In this document: in pieces, positions 5,758 to 55,277 of the stretch
Numbering within the stretch: position 1 is the first letter of the stretch
How the letters are laid out: the number at the start of each line of letters is the position of its first letter
Assembly (NCBI GenBank): GCA_904066235.2
Contig: CAJFCV020000005.1
Location: 1-64,000, forward strand
Direction: 5' to 3'
DNA length: 64,000 nt
From: Bursaphelenchus xylophilus
Lineage: Eukaryota; Nematoda; Chromadorea; Rhabditida; Aphelenchoididae
Program-made: the position numbers and the translations under genes
The notes under the pieces: generated by a model
The model's database searches: none
The model's input: only the letters and a program-made list of their open reading frames with translations
What the model was told of the DNA's origin: nothing

Positions 5758-5759
5758 CT

Positions 5760-5837
5760 GGTCTGGGAGATCAGCTCGGCATACTTATGATAACACGGAC
5801 CAAACTGCGGCAGACAGCAGCCGCGAAATATGCGAGC
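5760..5837 (+). ncRNA. Candidate HDV-like self-cleaving ribozyme, A1
   Basis: Two bases inside the element, GGTCTG (5760-5765) can pair with CGGACC (5796-5801) as P1. GCTCGGCATA (5774-5783) can pair with TATGCGAGC (5829-5837) with one bulged G as P2. GCGGC (5807-5811) pairs with GCCGC (5820-5824) as P4. The P4-P2 linker reads C-GAAA, like the catalytic J4/2 of HDV ribozymes. This nesting is the HDV double pseudoknot, known to release R2 and related RNAs from rRNA co-transcripts. P3 and P1.1 are not convincing, so the assignment is provisional. Confidence 0.55.
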
Positions 5838-5872
5838 CGAATGGTAAGCATATATGCCTTGACTACGTGTCA

Positions 5873-6126
5873 TTGCAGCCTTTACCCCTTTCATGACCTT
5901 GCAGGTTGGTTTAATTACTGGCTTGTTGTCGAATCCATACGATTGTGTGTGGTTGAATGTCGGGGTGTTACTTTGGACGGATAGCCTTGCTGTTTGTGAG
6001 GTGTTCAGAGTAAATGGGGAGTATGCTGAGTTTTGGGGACAGAAACTTGCGTAAGAGCAAAGCAGTTTCCCCGGACTTAGAATATTTTTCGAAGTTCGAG
6101 GGTACAAACTTGCGTAAAAGCAAAGG
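5873..6126 (+). repeat. 28S 3'-flank-like block inside A1
   Basis: From TTGCAGCCTTTACCC onward this closely matches the sequence just after 28S at 12971-13283, including GGTTTAATTACTGGCTTGTT and GTCGAATCCATACGA. Two motifs follow in the same order as in the spacer: ACTTGCGTAAGAGCAAAG (6045-6062) and ACTTGCGTAAAAGCAAAG (6108-6125). It looks like captured rDNA 3' flank, possibly with Pol I terminator function (inference). Confidence 0.8.
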
Positions 6127-6961
6127 ATCTTCCCCAACCTCCTTGGGCCTTAGTCCCACAGAGTTACCTCCACGTGGTGACCGGCGGGCGATGTAACAAT
6201 CGGCTAAAACTCTGAAAACTAACAAGCCTCTATTACTCTAACGCGAGCCAAAAGGTATGCCGGAGATCATGATAAATCGGCGCTAGGCGACTTACACGAC
6301 TATAGTCTGGTAAGTAACGTTCGACAATGATGGTTCACTAATGATCGTGGTGTCATACCTTAATGCAAGTGTTAGAATTGAAGGAGGAGGAATGTTGGAG
6401 ATTACTAACCGGGGGTAGCCAGCGATGCTACAGGTTAGATAAACCCAACAGATGATCCGACTTCATAACCTACTGTCGCTAACTTGAAAATCACTACTGC
6501 GCACAAGTACGCGCCCAGGAAAAGTGCAATGTAAAAACTGCGCCTACTACTGGGTTGCACCGGTGTTATAGCAGGTTAGATGAAATAGCTTCAGCGGGTA
6601 GCCTCTTGTCGTGAAAGTACCGAGAAATGTCGAGAAGTGCATCCGGGGTTAATGCACGAACGGTGATTGATGTCAAGTCGGGGTTTGCTTGCATCAAAGT
6701 AAGAGTCCAAGACGGGACGAAGTGGGAGATAACGCATGTATGGAACTGCTGCTGAAAGACAAGCCTCTTGAGGACCTGTGAAGGTCGGGGGGTCAAACCC
6801 TAAAACCAAGTCAAGAGGCCAATGGGCATGGAAGCGTGTGCAGTGAAGTACTTGTAGTAGAGGTAAAATGCATCGTGTCGGGTGGTCATATAAAGAGGAA
6901 AAATTTTATTTATTTTTCTTTTTTTTTTTGATAACAACCTTACATGACAGGATTATATTTT
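6127..6961. other. A1 5' untranslated / antisense 3' region
   Basis: No gene is supported here. It contains CCACAGAGTTACCTCC followed by the CCACGTGG palindrome near 6158-6178, also present in the B elements, and a run of T near 6913-6930 that is the A-rich tail of the antisense 3' UTR. A2 lacks 6127-6494. Confidence 0.6.
6905..6914 (-). terminator. Poly(A) signals of the antisense gene, A1
   Basis: Read on the minus strand, two overlapping AATAAA hexamers lie about 50 nt after the antisense stop. The surrounding AATAAATAAAATTTTTCC is identical in the B elements although flanking sequence differs. Confidence 0.6.
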
Positions 6962-7540
6962 CTACTTGGAAGATGATCCTGCGCTGGACTTGGACTTGGG
7001 CTTTCCTCTGGTTTTGACTCCACTGGCACGTGGCGGCTCTTCTTGAGGGAGTTCATCCTCCTCGTCATTGCCTCCTACCTCCATCTCACCAACCACCTCC
7101 TCATTCACTTGACGATTGCGTCTTGCCTGGCGTTTTGCGCGGGTGGATTGGCAGAATGAGTCAATGCTGGCTTCGGCGGCTTGGGCATCAGCTGGATGCT
7201 GTCGGCTGTATGCATCCCAGAGGTGGTCGATCTTGAGCAGCTTGGCTTTGACATGGTTTTTCTTCCACGACTCCATCACCTGCATACGAGAGTTGAGTTG
7301 AATGATAGACGTGATGGAAGAGTTGATATTGGGGGTATTACTGGTACAATCCTGCTTGGCCCGGCATAACCCATGTAATAGCTTGTAGGCTTCAGGGGTG
7401 AGCTCTTTGTCGTTCGCACCCTGGGCGGTCAAGGCAGCGGCTATAGTCGAAATTACGCCGACCTTGGAGCGGGTGGCAGGCTTGGACTTGGTGATTTTCT
7501 TGGTGGCGGTGGTTTTTGAACTGCCTGCACGCTCGGACAT
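6962..7540 (-). CDS. Antisense basic protein of A1 (192 aa), function unknown
   Basis: Not a family I recognise. The protein starts MSERAGSS and has a Lys/Thr-rich basic N-terminus (residues 9-30), a helical-looking middle (about 31-125) and a tail that is acidic (about 150-170) then Lys/Ser-rich. The middle aligns with the B antisense protein: STI..AL near 31, Y.LLH..C.....C, then HPADAQ near 122 against HPAEAQ in B. A C-X5-C pair is shared. The ATG has AAA before it and lies 8 nt after a TTTCAG acceptor; AATAAA follows the stop. The gene diverges from the RT gene and is separated from it by a tRNA-like and a promoter-like module. Charge suggests a nucleic-acid-binding partner such as an ORF1-like protein (inference only). 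Conserved architecture in two diverged families argues that it is real. Confidence 0.72.
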   Translation of the reverse strand: MSERAGSSKTTATKKITKSKPATRSKVGVISTIAAALTAQGANDKELTPEAYKLLHGLCRAKQDCTSNTPNINSSITSIIQLNSRMQVMESWKKNHVKAKLLKIDHLWDAYSRQHPADAQAAEASIDSFCQSTRAKRQARRNRQVNEEVVGEMEVGGNDEEDELPQEEPPRASGVKTRGKPKSKSSAGSSSK

Positions 7541-7548
7541 TTTCTTGG

Positions 7549-7560
7549 CTGAAAGTAAAG
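7549..7560 (-). promoter_or_regulatory. Splice-acceptor-like site of the antisense gene, A1
   Basis: On the minus strand CTTTACTTTCAG ends 8 nt before the ATG, matching the nematode 3' splice consensus TTTCAG. No donor is evident nearby, so trans-splicing of a spliced leader onto an outron is the simplest reading (inference). Confidence 0.5.
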
Positions 7561-7575
7561 ATCGTTAGAAATATG

Positions 7576-7651
7576 GCCCGGGCACCGGGAATCGAACTCG
7601 GGAGATCACGAATACAAGGCCGCCGTGTAACCAATTAGGCTACACGGTGAC
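7576..7651 (-). other. tRNA-like sequence, A1
   Basis: On the minus strand there is a near-perfect A box TAGCCTAATTGG and B box GAGTTCGATTCCC at tRNA spacing, with CTTGTAT where an anticodon loop (TGT, Thr) would be. Stems are degenerate: the D arm becomes an extended GTGTA/TACAC hairpin and the anticodon stem does not pair well. It is probably tRNA-derived and could keep Pol III promoter activity or act as structured RNA. A working tRNA is unlikely. Confidence 0.6.
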
Positions 7652-7691
7652 GGGAGCTAAACGCTGAAAACTCGGAGACGAGCCAAAACTC

Positions 7692-7762
7692 GGGGAAAGG
7701 GGCGTGGCTTGTGGGCACAGCCACCCAATCAGCGCGCTCCCCCGGGTATTTGGGCGTGGCTA
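7692..7762. promoter_or_regulatory. Candidate bidirectional promoter module, A1
   Basis: GGGGCGTGGC (7699-7708), CCCAATCAGCG (7724-7734) and GGGCGTGGC (7752-7760) are grouped between the divergent genes. The B elements have the same order: GC box, CCAATCAGCG, GC box. CCAAT and GC/CACCC boxes are Pol II promoter elements. No TATA box is seen. Confidence 0.45.
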
Positions 7763-8001
7763 CTGAAATGCGTTGTAGAAGAGAGGCAAAATAGCCTATC
7801 AAAGACCTAAGAGATGGGTACTCTGCGGGGGGTCATAAAGCACCCACTTAAAATACCCTGGGATAATGGCTTTAGCCTGGCTATTACACCCAACATGAAT
7901 GGGCTCCAAGTAAGATAACGAGGCGTCCTTGCAGGGTCACGCGGACTTCCGCCGACTCAAGGGATCCGCGGCAGGATGCTGCAGATGAATGCCCCTTAGA
8001 T

Positions 8002-11000
8002 ATGATGTTACTTGAGTCGCAAGGCAACCTTGCTATCTCGACCGAGAGGAGAGGTAGTGAGTACGGGGTGCGGGAAGGTGAGGCTCCGGCCGATCCCAAC
8101 GCCCCCGGTGTCTCTGGCATACCGAGTGAGAGTCCCGAGAGGAACAATGGTAATGCTGAGGCTAACGAGCCGATGACGGTGGAAACACGGTCGGAAGCAC
8201 AATCTGCCAGGAATACTGGTAAACGGGCTTTCTGGTCTCAAGACGAGACAATCAGATTGATCCAGGAGGACAAAGCGCTAAGAGCTGTGGTTGATCCCAC
8301 CCGTCTACGGAGGCTCGGCGGAGACCAATATTGGATCCGCCTCGCAGAGCAGTACGAGAGGGTGAGGCTCTTAGTAAACCGAATATATCAGTTAGATCTA
8401 CCCCAACGGGAAGCGGGTGCTGTAAAAAGCAAACTAGTCAACCGACTCCCCGTTGAGCTGAAGAATTCAGATAGGCGTGTATGGCCTAGGGTGGGTTTAG
8501 CTGGAGTAGGTAGCGATGTCCACGAAAGCGAAATGCCTGAAACCAACGAGAGATCGGAGGAATTAGGGCAAAGTAGCGGCACACCTGCTGACGCTCCGGC
8601 GGAAGCAGAGAGAGTCCACGTAGTGGACGACACGGAAGCTAGCAGCCCGGAAGACGGTAGTGTTGTTGTCGAGGAGAGATTCCGTCAACAGTTCAACCAC
8701 TATCGTAAAGTCTTTATGGAAAGGAACTCCACGTGGCGAAAGCCCCTGAAGTTCCCCAGAAAAGTGCCGGGAACACTCTGGACACAAGCCAACTCCTTAA
8801 TTGGAGATGTGCTTAGATCGGGTGTTGCGATTTCGCTCCATGACCTTAACAAGCTTGCTTATGCCGCCGCATGTACTGTTCAGCATTTCTTGAAAGAGAA
8901 AGACAGGCTATGCCTGGAACGAGAGCGGAATTGGTTCGCAGCTAGAGAGGTGGAGACGAATAGCCTGTTGCGCTACCTCAACTGGATAGATGTGGAGCTG
9001 GCCCGTAGACGAGTCTCGGCCCGCCAGACTACCCATCAGCGTTGGTGTTCTCGTCAGCTTAAGACTAGATATGGCCGAGAGAGAATTGCCGACACTGGCA
9101 GACTGAAAGAGCTGCGATCCATGTTGAGGGATGCCCTAGCGGGGGTCAGGAAGAGCGTGGCTAAGCGGAAGGCTGATCGAGAGCGCAAGAGGGCAAAGTT
9201 TGTACCTCTAAGGCGATATCTTGAGAAGGGTCCGGAAGTGGAACCACAGCTGGATGCAAACCGAGTGAAAGAGTATTGGGCTGAATTGGTGGGGGCCGAC
9301 GACCGTTCCGACAGTCGTTCGATCACTGCTGATTGGGCTCATGACCTCGAAGTGCCGGTGCAAACTGCCACGCCTTCCAAGATCCAAGTATGGTGGAAGA
9401 TGGCACTGTCTAAGTGCAAACCAAACAAAGCTGCAGGCCCAGACGGCCTACCGGGGTGTGTATGGAAATGCCTCCCCAATGCGAGCAATTGGTTGTGCAC
9501 CTGGCTGATTAAGAAGTTAGCGTGTAGTCGAATAGATACGCCGAGATGGTTAAGTGAGGGTCGTGTCGTCCTTTTGATGAAGAAGGGTGACCCAAACGAC
9601 CCCGCTAATTATAGACCCATCGCGTGTTTAAACACATGCTATAAACTTATGACGTCGGTAATAGAACGTGCCATCAGAGAGCAAGTAACTGCTTGCCCTA
9701 CGTTAATCCCTAGCGAGCAAGTCGCAAACCGTAAAGGTGTATGGGGATGTACGCATGCAAGTATCGTTGACAGGCTGGTAACGGGAACGGCAGCGATGTC
9801 GAAAGGCCAGAACGCGGATCTAAGGGTCCTGTTCTACGACTGTAAGAAGGCCTTCGACTCGGTTAGTCGTGACCATATGTTCAGAGTATTAGATGTCGCG
9901 GGTGTAGACCGAAAGATCTACTACCTGTTGAAGTCTTTTACGATGAATTGGACTGTCCGATATGAGCTTAGACGATCCGGCCGTGTAGAAAGAAGCGCCC
10001 CGCTCCGAGTGAAGAGGGGATTGCTTCAGGGTGACTCCTTGTCCCCTACATGGTTCTGTTTATGCATAGCTCCCATATCCCACGCTCTGAGGTTGAGAAA
10101 CCCCGGACCTTGTATACGTCAAGTAGCAGGGCATAGCGATGGTGGGCAAGTACACGTCAGCCATTTGTTTTATATGGATGATTTAAAAGTGTATTGCACA
10201 GGTGAGGCAGCTCAGGTAAGAGCCGAAAGGTTAGTGCCTGAACTGTTCTCGCAGATAGGACTATGTGTAAACGAAAGCAAGAGTGCTGCAGCCGCCGGCC
10301 CATCAAGAACATTGAGGTCCTCGCTTCCTTTATTGGGAGTGAAAGATCAGTATAAGTACTTGGGTATCGAGAGCGGGTTTGTGGCAAATGAGGCTTCTGC
10401 CTATAGTCGAATGCAGACCACTATATTAGCAAAAGTACAGAGTATACTTGATGTAGAAGGTCATACAGTCGGCCAACGGCGGATAGCGATTCGTACAGTG
10501 GCGTTCCCGGGCGCGGCATTTATCCTCGGTAATATAATACTGGGTGATAAGCAGCCAAACTCGGCCAAAGCCGACATGTTGAAGCTAGACATGGTGATTC
10601 GAGAGAAGATCCGGAGAAAAGGTCTGCTTCATCATAGTTGTGCGAATCCGCGAATATACCTCAGCTGTAAACGAGGGGGTTTGGAGTGGCCTTCGATGTT
10701 TAGAACCTACTGTGCAGCAGTAGCGTACTCGTCGGCATATCTCCTTACCAGCGGAGACCCATGGGTCAAGAGGGCGCAAGAGCACTTTGTGTACGGCACC
10801 CTAGCCGCTAAAAACCAAGTTTACAAGCACTTGCTGTACGTTCTGGGTGAACTGGAGATTGGACGGCAGGTCATAGAACCGCCGTGGGGTAATGATCCTA
10901 AGGCTTTAGCGCGAAAGCTCGTACTAGCCATCGATACGAAAATCGAGGAAAATTACCTCCGTGACCTTCGGGCCATGCCAAGAGCCGGTCGCTTTGTGAA

Positions 11001-11793
11001 CGCGGAATCGTCTGCCATTGACCAGGAAAACTCCCATCTCTGGTTAGAGAAAGGCTGGATCAATGGTAAAGCGTACCAGCATATTAATAGTGTGATAGAG
11101 GGCACTCTCCTAGAGGGAGTAAACCCACATAATGTGCTGGAAAAGTGTAGGGCATGTGGTAATCGTAATGCCGACATTATCCATATCACGAGTGGCTGTG
11201 AAAGGCTCCGTGAGACAATAATGAAAACGAGGCATGACGGTGCAACTAGATGGTTGTACTCTGCTCTTACCGAGGTAGACGAAAGCCTACCAAGGTTCCA
11301 CTATACGCAACAGATCGATGGGTTGGCAATTGGAAACAGATTGGAGATAAGGTATGACATAGATGTCGTAACGCCGAATCGTCCAAAGCATTGCCGCCCC
11401 GATCTGGTCGTGTTTGACAAACAACGAAAGGAAATATTCATCGTTGAGGTCAGTGTGTCCTGGTTCACAATAGTGCAGAAAATGTACGAGAATAAGTACT
11501 GTCGATATGCTGTAAACTCGAATCACGAGTACAGCGAGCACTGCCCGTATCCACCAGGGGTGAATTTGGCGAATGAACTGCGAGTGATGTACCCGCAGTA
11601 CGTAAATGGTGTAAAAGTCTTACCTTTGGTCATTACACCAACAGGCCATATTCACAATGAGTTTGTTCCCCACCTGCGTATGCTGCTCCAACAGTCTAAT
11701 GTGTCAAAGATTGTTGAGAGGATACAGCGGTCAGTCGTGCTGGGAACAGACTACATTATTCGTACCTACTTTGCAATGCTGAGAAAACACTAG
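8002..11793 (+). CDS. Reverse transcriptase / restriction-like endonuclease, A1 (1263 aa)
   Basis: Element-encoded enzyme for target-primed reverse transcription: it nicks 28S DNA and copies the element RNA. Domains: Ser/Glu-rich N-terminus; Myb-like region about 75-145 (FWSQDETIRL...LPQREAGAVKSKL), probably target binding; RT with motif A F611-Y-D613, RGLLQGDSLSP at 672-682 and YMDD at 724-727; CCHC knuckle C1049-X2-C1052-X8-H1061-X4-C1066; restriction-like endonuclease with P1133-D1134 and E1149. No N-terminal C2H2 finger is visible, unlike classical R2. The frame is open upstream to 7876, just after a TTTAG acceptor-like site, and upstream residues resemble the B frame (RRPC.VT / RRPRAVT), so the true start may be earlier and non-AUG. 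Confidence 0.95.
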   Translation: MMLLESQGNLAISTERRGSEYGVREGEAPADPNAPGVSGIPSESPERNNGNAEANEPMTVETRSEAQSARNTGKRAFWSQDETIRLIQEDKALRAVVDPTRLRRLGGDQYWIRLAEQYERVRLLVNRIYQLDLPQREAGAVKSKLVNRLPVELKNSDRRVWPRVGLAGVGSDVHESEMPETNERSEELGQSSGTPADAPAEAERVHVVDDTEASSPEDGSVVVEERFRQQFNHYRKVFMERNSTWRKPLKFPRKVPGTLWTQANSLIGDVLRSGVAISLHDLNKLAYAAACTVQHFLKEKDRLCLERERNWFAAREVETNSLLRYLNWIDVELARRRVSARQTTHQRWCSRQLKTRYGRERIADTGRLKELRSMLRDALAGVRKSVAKRKADRERKRAKFVPLRRYLEKGPEVEPQLDANRVKEYWAELVGADDRSDSRSITADWAHDLEVPVQTATPSKIQVWWKMALSKCKPNKAAGPDGLPGCVWKCLPNASNWLCTWLIKKLACSRIDTPRWLSEGRVVLLMKKGDPNDPANYRPIACLNTCYKLMTSVIERAIREQVTACPTLIPSEQVANRKGVWGCTHASIVDRLVTGTAAMSKGQNADLRVLFYDCKKAFDSVSRDHMFRVLDVAGVDRKIYYLLKSFTMNWTVRYELRRSGRVERSAPLRVKRGLLQGDSLSPTWFCLCIAPISHALRLRNPGPCIRQVAGHSDGGQVHVSHLFYMDDLKVYCTGEAAQVRAERLVPELFSQIGLCVNESKSAAAAGPSRTLRSSLPLLGVKDQYKYLGIESGFVANEASAYSRMQTTILAKVQSILDVEGHTVGQRRIAIRTVAFPGAAFILGNIILGDKQPNSAKADMLKLDMVIREKIRRKGLLHHSCANPRIYLSCKRGGLEWPSMFRTYCAAVAYSSAYLLTSGDPWVKRAQEHFVYGTLAAKNQVYKHLLYVLGELEIGRQVIEPPWGNDPKALARKLVLAIDTKIEENYLRDLRAMPRAGRFVNAESSAIDQENSHLWLEKGWINGKAYQHINSVIEGTLLEGVNPHNVLEKCRACGNRNADIIHITSGCERLRETIMKTRHDGATRWLYSALTEVDESLPRFHYTQQIDGLAIGNRLEIRYDIDVVTPNRPKHCRPDLVVFDKQRKEIFIVEVSVSWFTIVQKMYENKYCRYAVNSNHEYSEHCPYPPGVNLANELRVMYPQYVNGVKVLPLVITPTGHIHNEFVPHLRMLLQQSNVSKIVERIQRSVVLGTDYIIRTYFAMLRKH

Positions 11794-12050
11794 TTGAGTA
11801 AGCAAATGACTAAAGGCCTATAAGGCACAGCCTAAAGTCAGCAAAGAGGTGGGCAAACCCTGGGTGAGTGGAACACAGTGAATATGATAGAGATATCAGC
11901 TGAAGACCACTGACCCAGGGGCGTCAATGTCAGTTCGCATATAATGAGATGGGATGTCTTCTTATCCATTCACCAGGGTAAAACCTGGAAGATGGGGCGG
12001 GTGCAACGTGAGAGGTTTGCACATTGTGCGGACGTTGCTGCGAAACTGAA
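11794..12050 (+). other. 3' UTR of A1
   Basis: 257 nt ending at the target copy without poly(A). The last half (GTTCGCATATAATG, GGGTGCAACGT, GCACATTGTGCGGACGTTGC) is conserved in the B elements and probably forms the RNA structure recognised by the RT, as known for R2. Confidence 0.7.
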
Positions 12051-27692: not shown

Positions 27693-28271
27693 CTACTTGG
27701 AAGATGATCCTGCGCTGGACTTGGACTTGGGCTTTCCTCTGGTTTTGACTCCACTGGCACGTGGCGGCTCTTCTTGAGGGAGTTCATCCTCCTCGTCATT
27801 GCCTCCTACCTCCATCTCACCAACCACCTCCTCATTCACTTGACGATTGCGTCTTGCCTGGCGTTTTGCGCGGGTGGATTGGCAGAATGAGTCAATGCTG
27901 GCTTCGGCGGCTTGGGCATCAGCTGGATGCTGTCGGCTGTATGCATCCCAGAGGTGGTCGATCTTGAGCAGCTTGGCTTTGACATGGTTTTTCTTCCACG
28001 ACTCCATCACCTGCATACGAGAGTTGAGTTGAATGATAGACGTGATGGAAGAGTTGATATTGGGGGTATTACTGGTACAATCCTGCTTGGCCCGGCATAA
28101 CCCATGTAATAGCTTGTAGGCTTCAGGGGTGAGCTCTTTGTCGTTCGCACCCTGGGCGGTCAAGGCAGCGGCTATAGTCGAAATTACGCCGACCTTGGAG
28201 CGGGTGGCAGGCTTGGACTTGGTGATTTTCTTGGTGGCGGTGGTTTTTGAACTGCCTGCACGCTCGGACAT
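27693..28271 (-). CDS. Antisense basic protein of A2 (192 aa)
   Basis: Identical protein to the A1 copy, intact from ATG to stop. The CTTTACTTTCAG acceptor lies at 28280-28291. Its survival next to a rearranged 5' UTR shows the gene lies inside the conserved body of family A. Confidence 0.72.
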   Translation of the reverse strand: MSERAGSSKTTATKKITKSKPATRSKVGVISTIAAALTAQGANDKELTPEAYKLLHGLCRAKQDCTSNTPNINSSITSIIQLNSRMQVMESWKKNHVKAKLLKIDHLWDAYSRQHPADAQAAEASIDSFCQSTRAKRQARRNRQVNEEVVGEMEVGGNDEEDELPQEEPPRASGVKTRGKPKSKSSAGSSSK

Positions 28272-28732: not shown

Positions 28733-31700
28733 ATGATGTTACTTGAGTCGCAAGGCAACCTTGCTATCTCGACCGAGAGGAGAGGTAGTGAGTACGGGGT
28801 GCGGGAAGGTGAGGCTCCGGCCGATCCCAACGCCCCCGGTGTCTCTGGCATACCGAGTGAGAGTCCCGAGAGGAACAATGGTAATGCTGAGGCTAACGAG
28901 CCGATGACGGTGGAAACACGGTCGGAAGCACAATCTGCCAGGAATACTGGTAAACGGGCTTTCTGGTCTCAAGACGAGACAATCAGATTGATCCAGGAGG
29001 ACAAAGCGCTAAGAGCTGTGGTTGATCCCACCCGTCTACGGAGGCTCGGCGGAGACCAATATTGGATCCGCCTCGCAGAGCAGTACGAGAGGGTGAGGCT
29101 CTTAGTAAACCGAATATATCAGTTAGATCTACCCCAACGGGAAGCGGGTGCTGTAAAAAGCAAACTAGTCAACCGACTCCCCGTTGAGCTGAAGAATTCA
29201 GATAGGCGTGTATGGCCTAGGGTGGGTTTAGCTGGAGTAGGTAGCGATGTCCACGAAAGCGAAATGCCTGAAACCAACGAGAGATCGGAGGAATTAGGGC
29301 AAAGTAGCGGCACACCTGCTGACGCTCCGGCGGAAGCAGAGAGAGTCCACGTAGTGGACGACACGGAAGCTAGCAGCCCGGAAGACGGTAGTGTTGTTGT
29401 CGAGGAGAGATTCCGTCAACAGTTCAACCACTATCGTAAAGTCTTTATGGAAAGGAACTCCACGTGGCGAAAGCCCCTGAAGTTCCCCAGAAAAGTGCCG
29501 GGAACACTCTGGACACAAGCCAACTCCTTAATTGGAGATGTGCTTAGATCGGGTGTTGCGATTTCGCTCCATGACCTTAACAAGCTTGCTTATGCCGCCG
29601 CATGTACTGTTCAGCATTTCTTGAAAGAGAAAGACAGGCTATGCCTGGAACGAGAGCGGAATTGGTTCGCAGCTAGAGAGGTGGAGACGAATAGCCTGTT
29701 GCGCTACCTCAACTGGATAGATGTGGAGCTGGCCCGTAGACGAGTCTCGGCCCGCCAGACTACCCATCAGCGTTGGTGTTCTCGTCAGCTTAAGACTAGA
29801 TATGGCCGAGAGAGAATTGCCGACACTGGCAGACTGAAAGAGCTGCGATCCATGTTGAGGGATGCCCTAGCGGGGGTCAGGAAGAGCGTGGCTAAGCGGA
29901 AGGCTGATCGAGAGCGCAAGAGGGCAAAGTTTGTACCTCTAAGGCGATATCTTGAGAAGGGTCCGGAAGTGGAACCACAGCTGGATGCAAACCGAGTGAA
30001 AGAGTATTGGGCTGAATTGGTGGGGGCCGACGACCGTTCCGACAGTCGTTCGATCACTGCTGATTGGGCTCATGACCTCGAAGTGCCGGTGCAAACTGCC
30101 ACGCCTTCCAAGATCCAAGTATGGTGGAAGATGGCACTGTCTAAGTGCAAACCAAACAAAGCTGCAGGCCCAGACGGCCTACCGGGGTGTGTATGGAAAT
30201 GCCTCCCCAATGCGAGCAATTGGTTGTGCACCTGGCTGATTAAGAAGTTAGCGTGTAGTCGAATAGATACGCCGAGATGGTTAAGTGAGGGTCGTGTCGT
30301 CCTTTTGATGAAGAAGGGTGACCCAAACGACCCCGCTAATTATAGACCCATCGCGTGTTTAAACACATGCTATAAACTTATGACGTCGGTAATAGAACGT
30401 GCCATCAGAGAGCAAGTAACTGCTTGCCCTACGTTAATCCCTAGCGAGCAAGTCGCAAACCGTAAAGGTGTATGGGGATGTACGCATGCAAGTATCGTTG
30501 ACAGGCTGGTAACGGGAACGGCAGCGATGTCGAAAGGCCAGAACGCGGATCTAAGGGTCCTGTTCTACGACTGTAAGAAGGCCTTCGACTCGGTTAGTCG
30601 TGACCATATGTTCAGAGTATTAGATGTCGCGGGTGTAGACCGAAAGATCTACTACCTGTTGAAGTCTTTTACGATGAATTGGACTGTCCGATATGAGCTT
30701 AGACGATCCGGCCGTGTAGAAAGAAGCGCCCCGCTCCGAGTGAAGAGGGGATTGCTTCAGGGTGACTCCTTGTCCCCTACATGGTTCTGTTTATGCATAG
30801 CTCCCATATCCCACGCTCTGAGGTTGAGAAACCCCGGACCTTGTATACGTCAAGTAGCAGGGCATAGCGATGGTGGGCAAGTACACGTCAGCCATTTGTT
30901 TTATATGGATGATTTAAAAGTGTATTGCACAGGTGAGGCAGCTCAGGTAAGAGCCGAAAGGTTAGTGCCTGAACTGTTCTCGCAGATAGGACTATGTGTA
31001 AACGAAAGCAAGAGTGCTGCAGCCGCCGGCCCATCAAGAACATTGAGGTCCTCGCTTCCTTTATTGGGAGTGAAAGATCAGTATAAGTACTTGGGTATCG
31101 AGAGCGGGTTTGTGGCAAATGAGGCTTCTGCCTATAGTCGAATGCAGACCACTATATTAGCAAAAGTACAGAGTATACTTGATGTAGAAGGTCATACAGT
31201 CGGCCAACGGCGGATAGCGATTCGTACAGTGGCGTTCCCGGGCGCGGCATTTATCCTCGGTAATATAATACTGGGTGATAAGCAGCCAAACTCGGCCAAA
31301 GCCGACATGTTGAAGCTAGACATGGTGATTCGAGAGAAGATCCGGAGAAAAGGTCTGCTTCATCATAGTTGTGCGAATCCGCGAATATACCTCAGCTGTA
31401 AACGAGGGGGTTTGGAGTGGCCTTCGATGTTTAGAACCTACTGTGCAGCAGTAGCGTACTCGTCGGCATATCTCCTTACCAGCGGAGACCCATGGGTCAA
31501 GAGGGCGCAAGAGCACTTTGTGTACGGCACCCTAGCCGCTAAAAACCAAGTTTACAAGCACTTGCTGTACGTTCTGGGTGAACTGGAGATTGGACGGCAG
31601 GTCATAGAACCGCCGTGGGGTAATGATCCTAAGGCTTTAGCGCGAAAGCTCGTACTAGCCATCGATACGAAAATCGAGGAAAATTACCTCCGTGACCTTC

Positions 31701-32524
31701 GGGCCATGCCAAGAGCCGGTCGCTTTGTGAACGCGGAATCGTCTGCCATTGACCAGGAAAACTCCCATCTCTGGTTAGAGAAAGGCTGGATCAATGGTAA
31801 AGCGTACCAGCATATTAATAGTGTGATAGAGGGCACTCTCCTAGAGGGAGTAAACCCACATAATGTGCTGGAAAAGTGTAGGGCATGTGGTAATCGTAAT
31901 GCCGACATTATCCATATCACGAGTGGCTGTGAAAGGCTCCGTGAGACAATAATGAAAACGAGGCATGACGGTGCAACTAGATGGTTGTACTCTGCTCTTA
32001 CCGAGGTAGACGAAAGCCTACCAAGGTTCCACTATACGCAACAGATCGATGGGTTGGCAATTGGAAACAGATTGGAGATAAGGTATGACATAGATGTCGT
32101 AACGCCGAATCGTCCAAAGCATTGCCGCCCCGATCTGGTCGTGTTTGACAAACAACGAAAGGAAATATTCATCGTTGAGGTCAGTGTGTCCTGGTTCACA
32201 ATAGTGCAGAAAATGTACGAGAATAAGTACTGTCGATATGCTGTAAACTCGAATCACGAGTACAGCGAGCACTGCCCGTATCCACCAGGGGTGAATTTGG
32301 CGAATGAACTGCGAGTGATGTACCCGCAGTACGTAAATGGTGTAAAAGTCTTACCTTTGGTCATTACACCAACAGGCCATATTCACAATGAGTTTGTTCC
32401 CCACCTGCGTATGCTGCTCCAACAGTCTAATGTGTCAAAGATTGTTGAGAGGATACAGCGGTCAGTCGTGCTGGGAACAGACTACATTATTCGTACCTAC
32501 TTTGCAATGCTGAGAAAACACTAG
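28733..32524 (+). CDS. Reverse transcriptase / endonuclease, A2 (1263 aa)
   Basis: Same protein as A1 along its whole length, with YMDD, CCHC and the PD...E nuclease intact, so potentially active. The frame is open upstream of the annotated ATG as in A1. Confidence 0.95.
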   Translation: MMLLESQGNLAISTERRGSEYGVREGEAPADPNAPGVSGIPSESPERNNGNAEANEPMTVETRSEAQSARNTGKRAFWSQDETIRLIQEDKALRAVVDPTRLRRLGGDQYWIRLAEQYERVRLLVNRIYQLDLPQREAGAVKSKLVNRLPVELKNSDRRVWPRVGLAGVGSDVHESEMPETNERSEELGQSSGTPADAPAEAERVHVVDDTEASSPEDGSVVVEERFRQQFNHYRKVFMERNSTWRKPLKFPRKVPGTLWTQANSLIGDVLRSGVAISLHDLNKLAYAAACTVQHFLKEKDRLCLERERNWFAAREVETNSLLRYLNWIDVELARRRVSARQTTHQRWCSRQLKTRYGRERIADTGRLKELRSMLRDALAGVRKSVAKRKADRERKRAKFVPLRRYLEKGPEVEPQLDANRVKEYWAELVGADDRSDSRSITADWAHDLEVPVQTATPSKIQVWWKMALSKCKPNKAAGPDGLPGCVWKCLPNASNWLCTWLIKKLACSRIDTPRWLSEGRVVLLMKKGDPNDPANYRPIACLNTCYKLMTSVIERAIREQVTACPTLIPSEQVANRKGVWGCTHASIVDRLVTGTAAMSKGQNADLRVLFYDCKKAFDSVSRDHMFRVLDVAGVDRKIYYLLKSFTMNWTVRYELRRSGRVERSAPLRVKRGLLQGDSLSPTWFCLCIAPISHALRLRNPGPCIRQVAGHSDGGQVHVSHLFYMDDLKVYCTGEAAQVRAERLVPELFSQIGLCVNESKSAAAAGPSRTLRSSLPLLGVKDQYKYLGIESGFVANEASAYSRMQTTILAKVQSILDVEGHTVGQRRIAIRTVAFPGAAFILGNIILGDKQPNSAKADMLKLDMVIREKIRRKGLLHHSCANPRIYLSCKRGGLEWPSMFRTYCAAVAYSSAYLLTSGDPWVKRAQEHFVYGTLAAKNQVYKHLLYVLGELEIGRQVIEPPWGNDPKALARKLVLAIDTKIEENYLRDLRAMPRAGRFVNAESSAIDQENSHLWLEKGWINGKAYQHINSVIEGTLLEGVNPHNVLEKCRACGNRNADIIHITSGCERLRETIMKTRHDGATRWLYSALTEVDESLPRFHYTQQIDGLAIGNRLEIRYDIDVVTPNRPKHCRPDLVVFDKQRKEIFIVEVSVSWFTIVQKMYENKYCRYAVNSNHEYSEHCPYPPGVNLANELRVMYPQYVNGVKVLPLVITPTGHIHNEFVPHLRMLLQQSNVSKIVERIQRSVVLGTDYIIRTYFAMLRKH

Positions 32525-33992: not shown

Positions 33993-34202
33993 TTACTTAG
34001 CTTGATCTTCCTCTGCACTTGACTTCTTCGACTTGGCCTTCTTGTCCTTGGAGGGGTTGTCCTTTACATTGGAGGCGCCGGGCTGGTCTTCAGGCTCTTG
34101 ATTATCCAATTCCATAAGCTCCTCTTCAACTTGTTGAGCTTCTGCAGGGTGGCGGTGCGAATAGTTGCGCCAGACAACGTCAAGTTTCCTCAAGGCTGGC
34201 AA
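33993..34202 (-). pseudogene. 3' fragment of B antisense gene
   Basis: Encodes only the last 68-69 residues of the B antisense protein (the W..YS.RHPAEAQ motif to the Lys/Ser-rich end). The N-terminal half, ATG and acceptor are gone, and an in-frame TGA lies just upstream of the break. Confidence 0.8.
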
Positions 34203-34227
34203 GAATCATAGTAGGGCATGAAGTGAA

Positions 34228-36297: not shown

Positions 36298-39200
36298 GTG
36301 AATAGAAAAAGAAGGGCGGGAGAATATACGGGCGAGGTAAGCACGTCGGAACGGGGTGTGCCCAACTCGTACCGTACGCCCGGACAAGGACCATCTTTCG
36401 TACCCCGTTCACCCGGCACAAGTCCGATTGTCTCTCCCGAGAGGCGTCGGCGGAGGTTGGCTAACGCCGTCTCTCCAACCATCGGTTTGGGTTTAAGTAA
36501 CGCCCCAGTGGCCGGTAGCCAAACTGATGGAGGCAGAAATGCCGGTCCGTTGCTAAATGCGGGAACGGACCAAAACGCCGGTGTGGTGGATACAGGTGGA
36601 AGAGTCTTTTGGTCTACGCAAGAAAAGACCAGGCTCAAGTACGAATACGACCGTCTTCGTGAACGACGCCGTCGAGACAAAGTTCGAAATCCTACGGTCG
36701 ATAAGGCCATGGAAATCCTTTGGGAAGATCTCCGGTTGAAAATTGAAGATAGGTACGGTGTCACATTGCCGCAAAGAAGCGCAAGCTCTTTGAAAAACCA
36801 GTACCCCAAAGTTATTCTGCGGGGGCTCCCAGATTCGGGCCTGCCTTGGGCGGGGGTTCAGGTAAATGATACTGGACAAGTCGTAGTCGTAGACCATGCT
36901 GAGGCGGCTACCCTTCGGGGGTCCAGCCCAGCAGCGGTCGACGGGGAGGCCGAAGAACCGGTAGTACCCCCGTTACCCGCGGCAGAGGTCGTTGAATCGG
37001 CTGCTGACGCTGCGGTGCCCGATCCGCAAAGCGAGATCGTGGCTGACCAGGGTGTGGAGACACGCCCTGTCGAGAACCCCCCCGCTAATAGCCGGGAGAC
37101 TGAAACGGAACCCGTAGAGGTAGAGCCTTACCTCGAAGGGCAGTATAAATTCTTCGTTTCTAAGATCCTTGGGAAATCGATGTGGCGGAAGCCTATCAAA
37201 TACCCGAGGAGAGTCCCGGAAACCCTGTGGCGTCAAGCCAATGAGTTGATTGAGAGATCGATTCGACAGGGGGAAGTGTCGATTCAGAGCCTGAACTGCA
37301 TGGTTTATGCTGCTGGGTGCGCGGTTAAGTCTTCGCTGGACAAGAAGGATCAGGAAGCTAAGCGGCGTGAATCCGAGTGGTATGCGTGTAGGAAGGCCGA
37401 GATTAAGGCACTCGAGAGGTATCTCAATTTCATTGACCTGGAGTTAAAGCGTCGCTCTGCGTCGCGGCCGTTGACATCAAGGCAAAGGCAGAACTTGGGT
37501 GTGCTCATTACGAAGTATGGGCGTGCTCGGGTTAGGTCTGGTGTCCGGCTCTCGGAATTGCAGGCAATGTTACGAGACGCCTTAGTGGGAATCCGAAAGT
37601 GTATGGCGAAGCGCTCGGCAGACAAGAAACGGAAACAGGGCAAATTTGTTCCTATTCAACGTTACTTAGAGCCTAGCAGTGCGGAGCCTCGACTCTCTCC
37701 AGACACGGTTCGTGCATATTGGAATGACATTGTGGGATCTTCCCAACAGTCAACGTCAGATTCGACGATTCAAGACTGGTCTTCCAATTTAAGCGTTCCG
37801 AGTCAAGAGTTGAACGCAAGTAAGATCATGGGGTGGTGGAGAGCCGCCGTTTCGAAGAGCAAGCCCAACAAAGCTGCTGGTCCTGATGGTATTCCCGGGG
37901 TACTGTGGAAACGCTTCAGGTCGGCTAGTGAGTGGGTTTGTACCTGGTTATATCGCTTATTACAGAAGCGAAGGATAATCACGCCAAGATGGTTGTCTGT
38001 TGGTAGAGTCGTATTGTTACCAAAGAAAGGACCTCTCGAGGATCCCGCCAACTATAGACCCATCGCGTGCCTGAACACTGTATATAAGTTGATAACCTCG
38101 GTAGTAGAAATGGCAGTTCGAGAGCAGATCCAGGCTTGTCCTGGACTAGTCCCATACGAGCAGATAGCTAACCGTAAAGGCGTATGGGGCTGTACGCATG
38201 CGAGTATCGTAGACCGTATGATAACCGGTGCAAGCCGAGAAGGTAAGGGCGGTGGGTTTCCGGACCTACGCGTCCTATTTTACGATTGTAAAAAGGCCTT
38301 CGACAGCGTAAACCGAGATCATATGTTCGCTGTTTTGAGAGTAGCAAACGTGAACGTTAAGGTCGTGCATCTACTCCACACACTATCTCAGCAATGGTGT
38401 GTCCGATACGAGCTCCGTCGAAACAACCGTGTGGAGAGAAGTAGCCCGCTGAGGGTGAAAAGAGGACTGCTGCAAGGCGACACTCTCTCTCCTACATGGT
38501 TTTGCCTATGCATGGCTCCAATATCAGCCTCTATTAAAACCCTTAACCCTGGCCCAACCCTTCGGCCGAACATGGGGAATGGGCGAAATAGAGGGCAGGT
38601 GGCGATCCAAGTTAGTCATGTGTTCTACATGGATGACTTGAAAGTGTATTGCCCCCGCGTAGCCGATCAACGCAGAATGGAACAGAATATTCCACAGTTG
38701 TTCGGTGAAATTGGACTAAGCATAAATGCGAGTAAGAGCGCAGCAGCCGCAGCCGTGGGAAGATACGTTGAATCCGAGTTGCCAGTTCTTGGGACGAAGG
38801 ATGAGTACAAGTACCTGGGAATAGAAAGCGGTTTTGTTGTAAATGAGGTGGCCGCCCTTGACAGAATGCAGGCCGTTCTGCTAAACCGTGTAGAAGCGAT
38901 TCTATCGGTTAAAGAACATACTGTTGGTCAGAGGCGCGACGCTATACGAGCGAAAGCGATCCCTGGGGGGGCCTATATCCTGGGTCACATCATTTTGAGT
39001 GACTTGGACCCCAGGGGTGCTGCTGAGCGCATGCGTCGGTTGGATATCGAGATTCGGCGTTTAGTCAAATCAGCTGGTATTCTTCACGACAAGTGTAGTA
39101 CAGCGCGTATTCACCTTAGCTGTGAACAGGGAGGTCTAGCTTGGCCGTCGATGGAGAGAGCTTATTATGTAGCAGTTGCATATTCAGCCTCCTATCTTCT

Positions 39201-40242
39201 GACAAGTCAAGACGAAACTATCAGTCGTGCCAGAGACTACTTCGTCTCGGGTCGATTGAGTAACAAGTTTACTGTTTACAAGCACCTTACGAGCATCGTA
39301 GACTCCCTTGGTTTATCGGTAGAACTGCCGGATCCGAATGGACTTCCTACCGGTCAACCGTCCGTCCTGGCTAGAACTATTGCGAGAGCGATAGATGCCA
39401 AGTTGGAAGCGCAGTGGAAGGAAACTTTGCTAACTTACCAGCGCGCAGGGCGAGTCGAAAGGGCAGATCCGACGGTCGTGGACCATGCAAACTCATACCA
39501 TTGGTTGAGAAAAGCATGGATAAACGAGAAAGCGTACCAACATGCCGTGAGTGTTATGGAGGGAACTCTTTTGGAGGGAGTGAACCCTCACGGTGTGTTG
39601 ACCATGTGTAGAGCGTGTAAAGCTCCAAGTGCAAGCATTGCTCACATCATTACTGGCTGCGCCGAATTGCGCAAAAGCCATATGAAGGTGAGGCATGATG
39701 GAGTTACTCGCTGGCTATACAATGCTCTGACTGAGGTAGATGGTAGCCTACCGAAGTTCCACTATACGCAACAGATCCCGGCAGAGATGAGGGGTGAGCG
39801 ACTCACTGTCCGTTACGACTCGGACATAGTTACTCCCAATAAACCTCGTCACAACAGACCGGATCTTGTTGTCTTCGACTCTACTAGAAAGGTGATTTAT
39901 ATAGTAGAGGTCAGTGTAACGTGGTTGAGTGTGTTGCAAAAGCAATACGATAACAAGCTCAACAGGTATGCAGTGAACAGTAATCACGAGTTCAGTGAGA
40001 GCATACCATATCCGCCTGGTGTGAACCTTGCTAACGAGATAAGGGTTTTGTATCCTCAGTTTACTGGGGGTGTGAAGGTATTCCCTATGATTATCTCGCC
40101 AACAGGGGAAGTACACATGCAATTTGTGCCCCACCTTGCAGAGTTACTCGAAAATCCGAACATTCCTCGGATTCTAGAGAAAATTCAACGCTCGGTTGTG
40201 CTTGGTACAGATTACATTATCCGGTCATACTTCGCCATGTAA
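36298..40242 (+). CDS. Reverse transcriptase / endonuclease, C1 (1314 aa)
   Basis: Same enzyme type as in A and B but clearly more diverged. A basic N-terminus (NRKRRAG, then SPERRRRR) precedes a Myb-like region about 101-170 (VFWSTQEKTRL...LPQRSASSLKNQY). YMDD is at 777-780, CCHC starts at C1104, and the nuclease has P1188-D1189 and E1204. The start is uncertain: a TGA lies two codons before the GTG used here, and the first in-frame ATG is about residue 139, inside the Myb-like region. Translation must begin at a non-AUG codon or on a spliced RNA; R2 proteins are known for lacking a clear AUG. Confidence 0.93.
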   Translation: MNRKRRAGEYTGEVSTSERGVPNSYRTPGQGPSFVPRSPGTSPIVSPERRRRRLANAVSPTIGLGLSNAPVAGSQTDGGRNAGPLLNAGTDQNAGVVDTGGRVFWSTQEKTRLKYEYDRLRERRRRDKVRNPTVDKAMEILWEDLRLKIEDRYGVTLPQRSASSLKNQYPKVILRGLPDSGLPWAGVQVNDTGQVVVVDHAEAATLRGSSPAAVDGEAEEPVVPPLPAAEVVESAADAAVPDPQSEIVADQGVETRPVENPPANSRETETEPVEVEPYLEGQYKFFVSKILGKSMWRKPIKYPRRVPETLWRQANELIERSIRQGEVSIQSLNCMVYAAGCAVKSSLDKKDQEAKRRESEWYACRKAEIKALERYLNFIDLELKRRSASRPLTSRQRQNLGVLITKYGRARVRSGVRLSELQAMLRDALVGIRKCMAKRSADKKRKQGKFVPIQRYLEPSSAEPRLSPDTVRAYWNDIVGSSQQSTSDSTIQDWSSNLSVPSQELNASKIMGWWRAAVSKSKPNKAAGPDGIPGVLWKRFRSASEWVCTWLYRLLQKRRIITPRWLSVGRVVLLPKKGPLEDPANYRPIACLNTVYKLITSVVEMAVREQIQACPGLVPYEQIANRKGVWGCTHASIVDRMITGASREGKGGGFPDLRVLFYDCKKAFDSVNRDHMFAVLRVANVNVKVVHLLHTLSQQWCVRYELRRNNRVERSSPLRVKRGLLQGDTLSPTWFCLCMAPISASIKTLNPGPTLRPNMGNGRNRGQVAIQVSHVFYMDDLKVYCPRVADQRRMEQNIPQLFGEIGLSINASKSAAAAAVGRYVESELPVLGTKDEYKYLGIESGFVVNEVAALDRMQAVLLNRVEAILSVKEHTVGQRRDAIRAKAIPGGAYILGHIILSDLDPRGAAERMRRLDIEIRRLVKSAGILHDKCSTARIHLSCEQGGLAWPSMERAYYVAVAYSASYLLTSQDETISRARDYFVSGRLSNKFTVYKHLTSIVDSLGLSVELPDPNGLPTGQPSVLARTIARAIDAKLEAQWKETLLTYQRAGRVERADPTVVDHANSYHWLRKAWINEKAYQHAVSVMEGTLLEGVNPHGVLTMCRACKAPSASIAHIITGCAELRKSHMKVRHDGVTRWLYNALTEVDGSLPKFHYTQQIPAEMRGERLTVRYDSDIVTPNKPRHNRPDLVVFDSTRKVIYIVEVSVTWLSVLQKQYDNKLNRYAVNSNHEFSESIPYPPGVNLANEIRVLYPQFTGGVKVFPMIISPTGEVHMQFVPHLAELLENPNIPRILEKIQRSVVLGTDYIIRSYFAM

Positions 40243-47536: not shown

Positions 47537-47746
47537 TTACTTAGCTTGATCTTCCTCTGCACTTGACTTCTTCGACTTGGCCTTCTTGTCCTTGGAGGGG
47601 TTGTCCTTTACATTGGAGGCGCCGGGCTGGTCTTCAGGCTCTTGATTATCCAATTCCATAAGCTCCTCTTCAACTTGTTGAGCTTCTGCAGGGTGGCGGT
47701 GCGAATAGTTGCGCCAGACAACGTCAAGTTTCCTCAAGGCTGGCAA
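47537..47746 (-). pseudogene. Duplicated 3' fragment of the B antisense gene
   Basis: C-terminal 68-69 residues only, created by the duplication; no ATG or acceptor. Confidence 0.82.
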
Positions 47747-48399
47747 GAATCATAGTAGGGCATGAAGTGAAAGAGGCTACTTTTACTGAGCAGCAGGTTT
47801 GGTGTGAGAGATGAGTACCCCTCAAATCAAGATAACCAAATACCTCCCCTCGCTAAGTTACCGATCGAAAGCCAAGTACGGACAAAAGTTAGCCTTGAGC
47901 TATCGATTTGATGTCAAGTGCTGTAGAAAGGTTAGTGAGAAAGGAGGCTACAAACCGAAGTGAAAAGTGATGAAGTATACGATACAGGCAGAGCCCAGCT
48001 GCCTCAGTGCCTATAGAAGCGTTGGGTTTTCGCTCTATATGGCAGCCATTGGTGACAGGTCTATGATAGGGCGGCTGAAGGATGCACTGTTCGTGCGGTT
48101 CGTGAGAACCAAGGCACAGCCTATAATAAAAGCATGATCAGATAAGCATACGCGGAAGCGGAAGCTCTTGAATAGATAGAAGTACCCGAACTCAATTGAT
48201 ACTGGAGATGAAATCGCTACTCAGAGTGAGCGGCGGAAGGGTAAGCCATCTAGTGTGACCCGAGAGGGTCGAGCGTGGCTCAAAACCAATCGCTAGTGGA
48301 TAATTGCCTCGGATGCATTAGCTACAGAGTGCGAGAGTAAAAGGTATCGGTTGTGGGAGGGGGAAGAGCGGAATTGTGTTATGAAAAAACAGGAAAAAT

Positions 48400-48409
48400 T
48401 TTATTTATT
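48400..48409 (-). terminator. Poly(A) signals of the antisense gene, B1
   Basis: Overlapping AATAAA hexamers on the minus strand, about 40 nt after the stop. Confidence 0.6.
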
Positions 48410-48447
48410 TTTACCTGAATTGACATACAACAACCATAGAGATCTGT

Positions 48448-48960
48448 TTACTTAGCTTGATCTTCCTCTGCACTTGACTTCTTCGACTTGGCCTTCTTGT
48501 CCTTGGAGGGGTTGTCCTTTACATTGGAGGCGCCGGGCTGGTCTTCAGGCTCTTGGTTATCCAATTCCATAAGCTCCTCTTCAACTTGTTGAGCTTCTGC
48601 AGGGTGGCGGTGCGAATAGTTGCGCCAGACAACGTCAAGTTTCCTCAAGGCTGGCATCACCTTCTTCTTGTGGAACAGATCGTGTTTGGTAATACGATTT
48701 TGCATGCCAATGAGTTGGACACAATGGTCCCCGGTAGGGGTGCCTGAACAAGGCTTGTGATTTTGACAGACTTTATGAAGCAGGCCGTATACTTCATCGC
48801 TGATAGTTGGAGATTTTGAATCCATAAGTCCTAAGGCCTTCAGGATAGTTGAATAAGGGGTGGGTTTCGGCTTCGGCTTAGACACACCTGGCTTCTGCTG
48901 TTGGTCGCCGGGCTTTTTCTCCTCCTTCTTCTGTTCTCCTTGCTTTCTCGGGTTTGCCAT
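48448..48960 (-). CDS. Antisense basic protein of B1 (170 aa), function unknown
   Basis: Starts MANPRKQGEQ. A Lys/Gln/Pro-rich basic N-terminus (to about 35) is followed by a middle region (about 36-125) homologous to the A antisense protein (STILKAL, YGLLHKVCQNHKPC, VWRNYSHRHPAEAQ). The tail is acidic then Lys/Ser-rich (KDKKAKSKKSSAEEDQAK). The frame is open further upstream, but the ATG chosen is the first after CTTTCAG and has the same place as in A. Sequence differs from A at most positions while motif order, charge pattern and signals are kept, which suggests selection on the protein. Confidence 0.72.
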   Translation of the reverse strand: MANPRKQGEQKKEEKKPGDQQQKPGVSKPKPKPTPYSTILKALGLMDSKSPTISDEVYGLLHKVCQNHKPCSGTPTGDHCVQLIGMQNRITKHDLFHKKKVMPALRKLDVVWRNYSHRHPAEAQQVEEELMELDNQEPEDQPGASNVKDNPSKDKKAKSKKSSAEEDQAK

Positions 48961-48970
48961 ATCGGAAAAT

Positions 48971-48982
48971 CTGAAAGTAGAG
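48971..48982 (-). promoter_or_regulatory. Splice-acceptor-like site of the antisense gene, B1
   Basis: Minus strand CTCTACTTTCAG, 10 nt before the ATG. The ACTTTCAG core is identical to family A. Confidence 0.5.
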
Positions 48983-48992: not shown

Positions 48993-49066
48993 GGGGTGGG
49001 GGGATTCGAACTCGCAAGGTTTCACGCACGAACCGCCCCCTTTGACCAGTAGGCCACAGGGGGACG
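48993..49066 (-). other. tRNA-like sequence, B1
   Basis: Minus strand A box TGGCCTACTGG and B box GAGTTCGAATCCC, with a GGTTC...AAACC hairpin at the anticodon-arm position. The acceptor strands do not pair with each other (both C-rich). It appears to derive from a different tRNA than the A copy, or has diverged far, but has the same place and strand. Confidence 0.58.
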
Positions 49067-49165: not shown

Positions 49166-49564
49166 CGAGCAGGGAAGTAAATGCTTGGTTCTTACGCAAG
49201 TTTGGATACTCTTTTTTGCCACGCACTGTGCAGCGTCTGGGAAAATCCTTGGGAAATTCCTTTGATGTTACGCAAGTTTGGTAATAAAAGCGGGCCATTA
49301 TTGCATAAGTATGAACACAAGTGTTACTTCCAGGGTGGTTTACGGTTTTACACCCGCCAACAGCTGCCAGAGTTGGGTACTCTAGGGGGGCAGGATAATA
49401 CAATACCAAATAAGGTCCCTAGGTTGGGCGCCCTAGCTAGGCGCCCCAGCCGAAATTTTACGGCTTTGAATCCTAAAAAGAGGCGTCCTCGCGCGGTCAC
49501 ACAGTCTTCTGGTGGCTCAGGGGAACTGTGGCGGGATGCTGCAGACCATTGCCCGTCAGATAGG
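49166..49564 (+). other. RT leader of B1
   Basis: Contains two inverted spacer-type motifs, TTCTTACGCAAGTTTGG (49191-49207) and GATGTTACGCAAGTTTGG (49264-49281). The RT frame is open through it, but a one-T difference near 49214 (B1 against B2) and a one-G difference in the tract at about 62020 (B3) change the frame, so its first part is probably not coding. Confidence 0.6.
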
Positions 49565-54764: not shown

Positions 54765-55277
54765 TTACTTAGCTTGATCTTCCTCTGCACTTGACTTCTT
54801 CGACTTGGCCTTCTTGTCCTTGGAGGGGTTGTCCTTTACATTGGAGGCGCCGGGCTGGTCTTCAGGCTCTTGGTTATCCAATTCCATAAGCTCCTCTTCA
54901 ACTTGTTGAGCTTCTGCAGGGTGGCGGTGCGAATAGTTGCGCCAGACAACGTCAAGTTTCCTCAAGGCTGGCATCACCTTCTTCTTGTGGAACAGATCGT
55001 GTTTGGTAATACGATTTTGCATGCCAATGAGTTGGACACAATGGTCCCCGGTAGGGGTGCCTGAACAAGGCTTGTGATTTTGACAGACTTTATGAAGCAG
55101 GCCGTATACTTCATCGCTGATAGTTGGAGATTTTGAATCCATAAGTCCTAAGGCCTTCAGGATAGTTGAATAAGGGGTGGGTTTCGGCTTCGGCTTAGAC
55201 ACACCTGGCTTCTGCTGTTGGTCGCCGGGCTTTTTCTCCTCCTTCTTCTGTTCTCCTTGCTTTCTCGGGTTTGCCAT
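54765..55277 (-). CDS. Antisense basic protein of B2 (170 aa)
   Basis: Identical protein to B1, with the acceptor CTTTCAG at 55288-55294 and poly(A) signals in place. Confidence 0.72.
   Translation of the reverse strand: MANPRKQGEQKKEEKKPGDQQQKPGVSKPKPKPTPYSTILKALGLMDSKSPTISDEVYGLLHKVCQNHKPCSGTPTGDHCVQLIGMQNRITKHDLFHKKKVMPALRKLDVVWRNYSHRHPAEAQQVEEELMELDNQEPEDQPGASNVKDNPSKDKKAKSKKSSAEEDQAK

Follow-up and report, generated by a model that had tools for sequence, protein, structure and literature searches.

The minus-strand open reading frame (ORF) found upstream of the reverse transcriptase (RT) gene in two families of rDNA retrotransposons (A and B) of Bursaphelenchus xylophilus is a real protein-coding gene under purifying selection, and it occupies the same place in both families. 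On balance, we consider it rather probable that this is an antisense accessory gene with its own, probably trans-spliced mRNA, whose product acts in trans in retrotransposition, an organisation like that of primate L1 ORF0.

The window (the whole stretch of DNA analysed, 64 kb) is the rDNA end of a B. xylophilus contig, referred to below as C5, and comprises the first 64 kb of its 12.6 Mb; genome searches covered 78.25 Mb in 8 contigs. The first 27 kb of the window contain three copies of 18S, each followed by 5.8S and 28S, and two of the three 28S genes carry an inserted element. Arrays of rDNA and elements are hard regions to assemble, and the assembly was probably based on Nanopore reads (PMC7561696). 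Families A and B are R2-like RT retrotransposons inserted in 28S. Elements of family B are arranged in tandem with a period of approximately 6317 bp, and a third family, C, is likewise tandem (period 5722 bp). When the RT of element A was compared with PDB sequences, R2 was the best match (E 7e-14), and LINE-1 ORF2 also matched (3e-10). No Pfam match was obtained for a C-terminal CCHC or restriction-like endonuclease in element A; its translation contains CRAC...H....C and RPD...EVS, which we take to resemble the motifs of these domains.

The insertion site within 28S is fixed: both A elements, an RT-less copy just outside the window (A′) and the examined B units all begin directly after TGAATG, in the same 28S stretch or its 17-bp repeat. 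The intact 28S sequence around the insertion point (marked by a slash) reads ...TTAGTGACGCGTATGAATG/GATTAACG... The first A element begins after TGAATG and stops before the second copy of the repeat AGTGACGCGTATGAATG, and the same 17 bases are present at the examined ends of family B (53554-53570, 66188-66204). In the intact 28S, 42 nt separate the insertion point from the R2 cleavage point (TTAAGG/TAGCC) upstream of it. The insertion site of nematode R4 falls between the R2 and R1 sites.

Several further features of the array were recorded. One stretch of the 5′ leader of the elements resembles the 3′ part of 28S (20325-20420 and copies) at 86-90% identity; in the window this stretch is located at 5873-5968, 27002-27093, 32909-33000, 46453-46544, 53682-53773 and 59998-60089. 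It is followed by TTGCGTAA-AGCAA words, found also just downstream of 28S (20539, 20624), and the leader may borrow the 3′-end processing or termination signals of 28S. Families A (5758-5840) and B (53571-53650) begin with GGTCTG...CGGACC and GCGGC...GCCGC pairings, which could form a 5′-end structure in both; no HDV-like ribozyme was found above the Rfam cut-off. In the second A element the 5′ end is of B type (26872-27226, 99.7% to B) and the body, beyond a junction at 27225/27226, of A type; the element is either chimeric or an assembly join. A block of family C (34227-46357) is joined to B pieces cut within the antisense gene. In the third B copy, the ORF at the RT start (61535-62032) ends at 62032, whereas those of copies 1 and 2 remain open; this copy gives a gapped tblastn match to the B RT, and the early end is probably a frameshift, real or assembly-derived. 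A further, distant RT is located at C5:73967-77813 (tblastn pieces show 23-32% identity to A, B and C).

All five minus-strand ORFs reported in the initial annotation are present at the coordinates given there, and their products are small and basic, as it described (Table 1). The ORFs of family B are listed from an upstream GTG, the ATG sitting inside. A whole-genome search with each protein located at least nine loci, all less than 82 kb from the contig start: two A, three B, A′, a second copy just outside the window (B′) and two truncated B pieces; this number is a lower bound, since the best candidates were scored. The full frame is intact at six of the nine loci, so it is not broken in most copies. 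Copies of the same family, A or B, show little or no difference from each other, which leaves four distinct sequences as the basis of the evidence (A, A′, B and the broken B′). In A, A′ and B the gene lies between the 5′ leader and the RT, no copy outside these elements was found in the genome among the best candidates, and its assignment to the element is supported. In family C, whose RT is approximately 51% identical to that of A, no match to the antisense protein was found at E up to 1. A similar RT without a detectable antisense gene indicates that the protein is not essential to this element type.

Table 1. Coordinates of the antisense genes, RT genes and associated features. Positions are those of the window, unless preceded by C5.
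Feature	Position	Strand	Details
Element A copy 1	5758..12049	+	17-bp repeat AGTGACGCGTATGAATG either side (5741-5757, 12050-12066), in 28S
Antisense gene, A copy 1	6962..7540	-	192 aa, pI 9.6; dN/dS 0.15 vs A′
Antisense gene, A copy 2	27693..28271	-	identical to A copy 1
Antisense gene, B copy 1	48448..48960	-	170 aa, pI 9.2
Antisense gene, B copy 2	54765..55277	-	identical to B copy 1; dN/dS 0.12 vs B′
Antisense gene, B copy 3	61082..61594	-	one synonymous change
Truncated B antisense gene	33996..34208	-	C-terminal 71 codons, one TGA
Truncated B antisense gene	47540..47752	-	C-terminal 71 codons, one TGA
Antisense gene A′	C5:79138-79710		just outside window; intact, 190 aa
Antisense gene B′	C5:81410-81882		just outside window; broken, 37-bp deletion
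RT gene, element A copy 1	8002..11793	+	Pfam RVT_1 1.4e-23; best PDB match R2
RT gene, element A copy 2	28733..32524	+	from ORF listing
RT gene, element B copy 1	49181..53320	+	mechanical ORF from first ATG; true start may be further in
RT gene, element B copy 2	55218..59636	+	mechanical ORF
RT gene, family C	36298..40242	+	no antisense-gene relative found in family C
TTTCAG splice-acceptor-like site, A	7549..7554	-	8 nt upstream of ATG; conserved in A′
TTTCAG splice-acceptor-like site, B	48971..48976	-	10 nt upstream of ATG; conserved in B′
AAAAATAAATAAAATTTTTCCT, AATAAA signals and T5 run, A	6896..6917	-	44 nt after stop codon
Same 22-nt signal AAAAATAAATAAAATTTTTCCT, B	48391..48412	-	35 nt after stop codon
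tRNA box A/box B-like stretch (TAGCCTAATTGG ... GAGTTCGATTCC), A	7588..7642	-	no tRNA recognised (ARAGORN default, Rfam)
tRNA box A/box B-like stretch (TGGCCTACTGGT ... GAGTTCGAATCC), B	49002..49056	-	consensus scan scores an overlapping box A, 36 nt ahead of box B; no tRNA recognised (ARAGORN default, Rfam)

The coding capacity of the ORF is supported by comparisons between and within the families. The A and B proteins had been described as alignable despite diverged DNA, and this proved correct: they share 29% identity over 161 positions (E 8e-14 in a single comparison), with a Smith-Waterman score of 140 against 33.8 +/- 5.4 (maximum 72) in 1000 shuffles. This similarity is frame-specific, as the annotated pair scored 140 and each of the other 35 of the 36 A-B frame pairs 38 or less, while the alignment of the ORF DNA scored 14, within the range of 200 shuffles (mean 11.6, maximum 18). 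For A/A′ (190 codons), dN was 0.106 and dS 0.689 (ratio 0.153), and three other estimators gave dN 0.105-0.116, dS 0.53-0.72 and ratios of 0.15-0.22 (YN00 0.22). For B/B′ (157 codons), the corresponding values were 0.116, 0.995 and 0.117. The dN/dS check proposed with the original description thus returned values that are not near 1 in two pairs independent of each other. Changes at codon positions 1/2/3 numbered 29/13/61 (A/A′) and 26/13/56 (B/B′). The lowest omega in 5000 neutral simulations, performed for family A alone and set to the number and kinds of changes observed, was 0.327, and the frame stayed open in 5% of them. In the other five frames of A/A′ (first 140 codons) dN/dS was 0.25, 1.0, 1.0, 4.0 and 4.0; the frame with 0.25 contains stops (2 and 6) and was therefore rejected as a rival gene.

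The acceptor, ATG and AATAAA lie at matching places in the two families, as initially annotated: TTTCAG and AATAAATAAAATTTTTCCT take corresponding positions in A and B, at the distances given in Table 1. The region of the 22-mer shares 13 10-mers between A and B, against a mean of 0.08 and a maximum of 5 in 1000 Markov pairs, with the caveat that the shared 22-mer is of low complexity. CCAAT/GC-box-like words further upstream (CGCTGATTGG, CACGCCCC) are weak promoter candidates, being at the chance level in the 10-mer test (one shared 10-mer, equalled or exceeded by 111 of 1000 Markov pairs).

A consensus scan for tRNA-type box A and box B, which the initial annotation does not mention, in 94 kb (both strands, without a shuffle control) gave 11 hits, of which six belonged to antisense genes (A 2, A′ 1, B 3), four in 18S copies and one elsewhere. 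No tRNA was recognised at the box-like stretches of A and B, either by ARAGORN with default settings or by Rfam, and the idea, prompted by box B, that the antisense ORF is preceded by a tRNA gene was rejected on these grounds. Loosened ARAGORN settings (-ps50, -ps30 -i) produced several mutually inconsistent tRNA models, which were discounted. Given the lack of a recognised tRNA and of a shuffle control for the scan, a possible internal Pol III-type promoter upstream of the antisense gene is retained as a lead only. Between the boxes and the 3′ signal there is no T run of four or more in A and A′; family B has one TTTT at 48969, which argues against transcription of the entire gene by Pol III in that family.

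Spliced leaders are used in B. xylophilus. We propose that the common ancestor of A and B, a 28S-specific R2-like element, gained a minus-strand second gene in its long 5′ UTR before the families split. A minus-strand promoter in the intergenic stretch (461 nt in A) would yield a separate mRNA, which may be capped at the TTTCAG acceptor by spliced-leader trans-splicing and polyadenylated at AATAAA. With such a capped and polyadenylated mRNA, expression would be independent of rRNA read-through or of the RT mRNA. The product would most likely be a nuclear or nucleolar protein that binds nucleic acid and assists retrotransposition in trans, the role played in L1 by ORF0p and ORF1p.

A′ is an element-like copy (C5:77998 to about 80339) with both element ends and an intact antisense gene, from which the RT has been deleted. 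Its 5′ part reaches approximately 50 bases into the RT and then joins 3′ UTR sequence at C5:80226-80229, so that it resembles a non-autonomous derivative. Since its ORF is intact in the absence of nearly all of the RT, the open frame needs no RT in cis, and the survival of the gene fits action in trans.

No recognised nucleic-acid-binding domain could be assigned to the antisense protein, as comparisons with Pfam, NCBIfam and PDB sequences gave sub-threshold, inconsistent matches. A search of approximately 5.8 billion proteins, which detects just relatives sharing exact 5-residue words and is thus of limited sensitivity, returned the window's own proteins and B. xylophilus entries corresponding to A′ and B′ alone; one B. 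xylophilus database entry is 79% identical to the family A antisense protein. Structure prediction with four sequences was poor (mean pLDDT 49.7, helices only), and the predicted layout consists of basic tails at the ends around a helical, Cys-containing core of approximately 95 residues. The intact ORF of A′, the basic tails and the low-confidence helical core together favour a nucleic-acid-binding accessory acting in trans. Counting against this reading are the poor model, the lack of a recognised binding domain, the apparent lack of the gene in family C, the broken state of B′ and two truncated pieces, and the weakness of the upstream promoter candidates.

In both pairs the coding block is ten- to twentyfold older, or faster at silent sites, than its surroundings: synonymous divergence of the ORF is 0.7–1.0, while the flanks differ by 3–4%. 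This ORF-confined divergence, seen in two pairs from one genome, is new in the present analysis. Across both A/A′ flanks, 46 differences were counted in 1366 aligned sites (3.4%); in the ORF, 133 synonymous sites carry 60 synonymous differences (Fisher p 7e-41 versus flanks). For B/B′, 44 of 1026 sites differ in the flank past the stop codon, compared with 55 of 100 synonymous sites in the ORF and 21 of 247 in two RT pieces (dS 0.113 and 0.049). Maximum-likelihood change points for A/A′ were placed at 7529-7544 on the gene-start side (ATG 7540) and at 6899-7024 on the gene-end side (stop 6962). For B/B′ the gene-end change point falls at 54780-54817, 15-52 nt inside the stop at 54765; that at the gene start, 55285-55296 (ATG 55277, acceptor about 55288), is a weak boundary, as the B′ deletion leaves approximately 27 nt of flank and the comparison extended no further than 33 nt. 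That the flanks owe their low divergence to strong constraint is disfavoured, because silent sites of the B/B′ RT are nearly as young as the flank, and because blastn of A against B gave no match of at least 100 bases in 6218-7916 (5739-6217 matched at 79% and 7917-8022 at 77%).

One explanation, which we put forward tentatively as possible but doubtful, is that, if the pattern holds in populations, the antisense gene is an exchangeable module, each family holding two ancient versions of it in otherwise nearly identical backbones. Selection for frequency-dependent specificity, in a selfish element facing rivals or its host, would keep the old versions while recombination homogenised the rest. 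Block edges close to the gene ends in both pairs argue against simple random exchange. Chimeric elements in the array suggest module exchange; assembly errors could instead account for them. Another explanation for the ORF-confined divergence is a local mutation process.

It is unlikely that the gene is a passenger, derived from the host or a virus, that takes no part in transposition and benefits only its host or its own persistence. Its small size, lineage restriction, own signals and apparent absence from family C would suit such an origin, as would its retention in A′ without an RT. However, no free-standing copy was found among the best candidates in the genome, and the protein search, at its limited sensitivity, gave no homologue beyond the B. 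xylophilus entries.

Some transposable elements restrain themselves, Ty1 p22 being an example of copy-number control. An antisense gene encoding a repressor of its own family, protecting the essential rDNA array, strikes us as quite unlikely here. Elements bound to rDNA would pay directly for overgrowth, the gene is separate from the RT and kept in RT-less A′, and distinct ORF types in near-identical backbones are as expected if specificity matters. Against this, no target site or partner has been identified, many amino-acid replacements between A and A′ fall in the N- and C-terminal portions and not in the most conserved core stretches, and a pure repressor is harder to reconcile with purifying selection in a selfish lineage.

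The gene is entirely antisense to the 5′ UTR of the RT gene, so the RNA itself might matter, with sense and minus-strand RNAs forming double-stranded RNA that leads to silencing; antisense RNA from an internal promoter is described for Dictyostelium TRE5-A (PMC5633606). Synonymous sites are nevertheless free to change and replacement sites constrained, and this selection on the protein makes RNA as the sole explanation very improbable. A chance open frame is refuted by the dN/dS values and the frame-specific A-B similarity and has next to no probability.

Like R2 and R4, the elements combine a 28S target with a sense RT gene, and R2 is the best match among solved structures. To our knowledge, R2 and R4 are known for a single sense ORF only, whereas A and B carry an added gene on the opposite strand. 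The accessory gene we favour is, like L1 ORF0, a small ORF in the 5′ UTR, antisense to the sense ORF. It differs in that an acceptor-like splice site accompanies it, whereas L1 ORF0 goes with a donor site; its product of 170-192 aa is longer than ORF0p, is known from sequence alone and shows purifying selection between families. With their R2-like RT and rDNA target, the present elements also belong to a different retrotransposon class. ORF0 of primates is an ORF expressed from the antisense promoter of the L1 5′ UTR, and ORF0p is nuclear and reported to stimulate L1 retrotransposition (PMC7746726). In TRE5-A, a C module contains the internal promoter for antisense transcripts, and the accessible part of that report makes no mention of an antisense protein (PMC5633606). 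Utopia/NeSL elements, found also in nematodes and assigned to the same broad class with restriction-like endonucleases, are described as having acquired an extra function, an N-terminal Ulp1-like protease, but this domain is within the sense ORF, unlike the gene of A and B (PMC4640811). The suggestion that a second protein from the opposite strand represents a new organisation therefore stands for rDNA-specific elements, as far as the literature search reaches, but not for non-LTR retrotransposons at large, where L1 ORF0 is a precedent (PMC7746726). That search, with most subscription journals outside its coverage, turned up no rDNA-specific element with a gene for an antisense protein.

R2-type rDNA elements serve as models for target-primed integration and are not known to use more than a single sense protein, whose gene is transcribed along with rRNA. 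If the accessory reading is true, some rDNA elements have a promoter of their own for a second protein, uncoupled from the transcription of rRNA, much as L1 has for ORF0. The restriction of the divergence to coding sequence suggests that, within the element, selection for difference is directed at the antisense protein. The protein would thus offer a defined handle on how rDNA elements help or limit themselves in an essential gene array.
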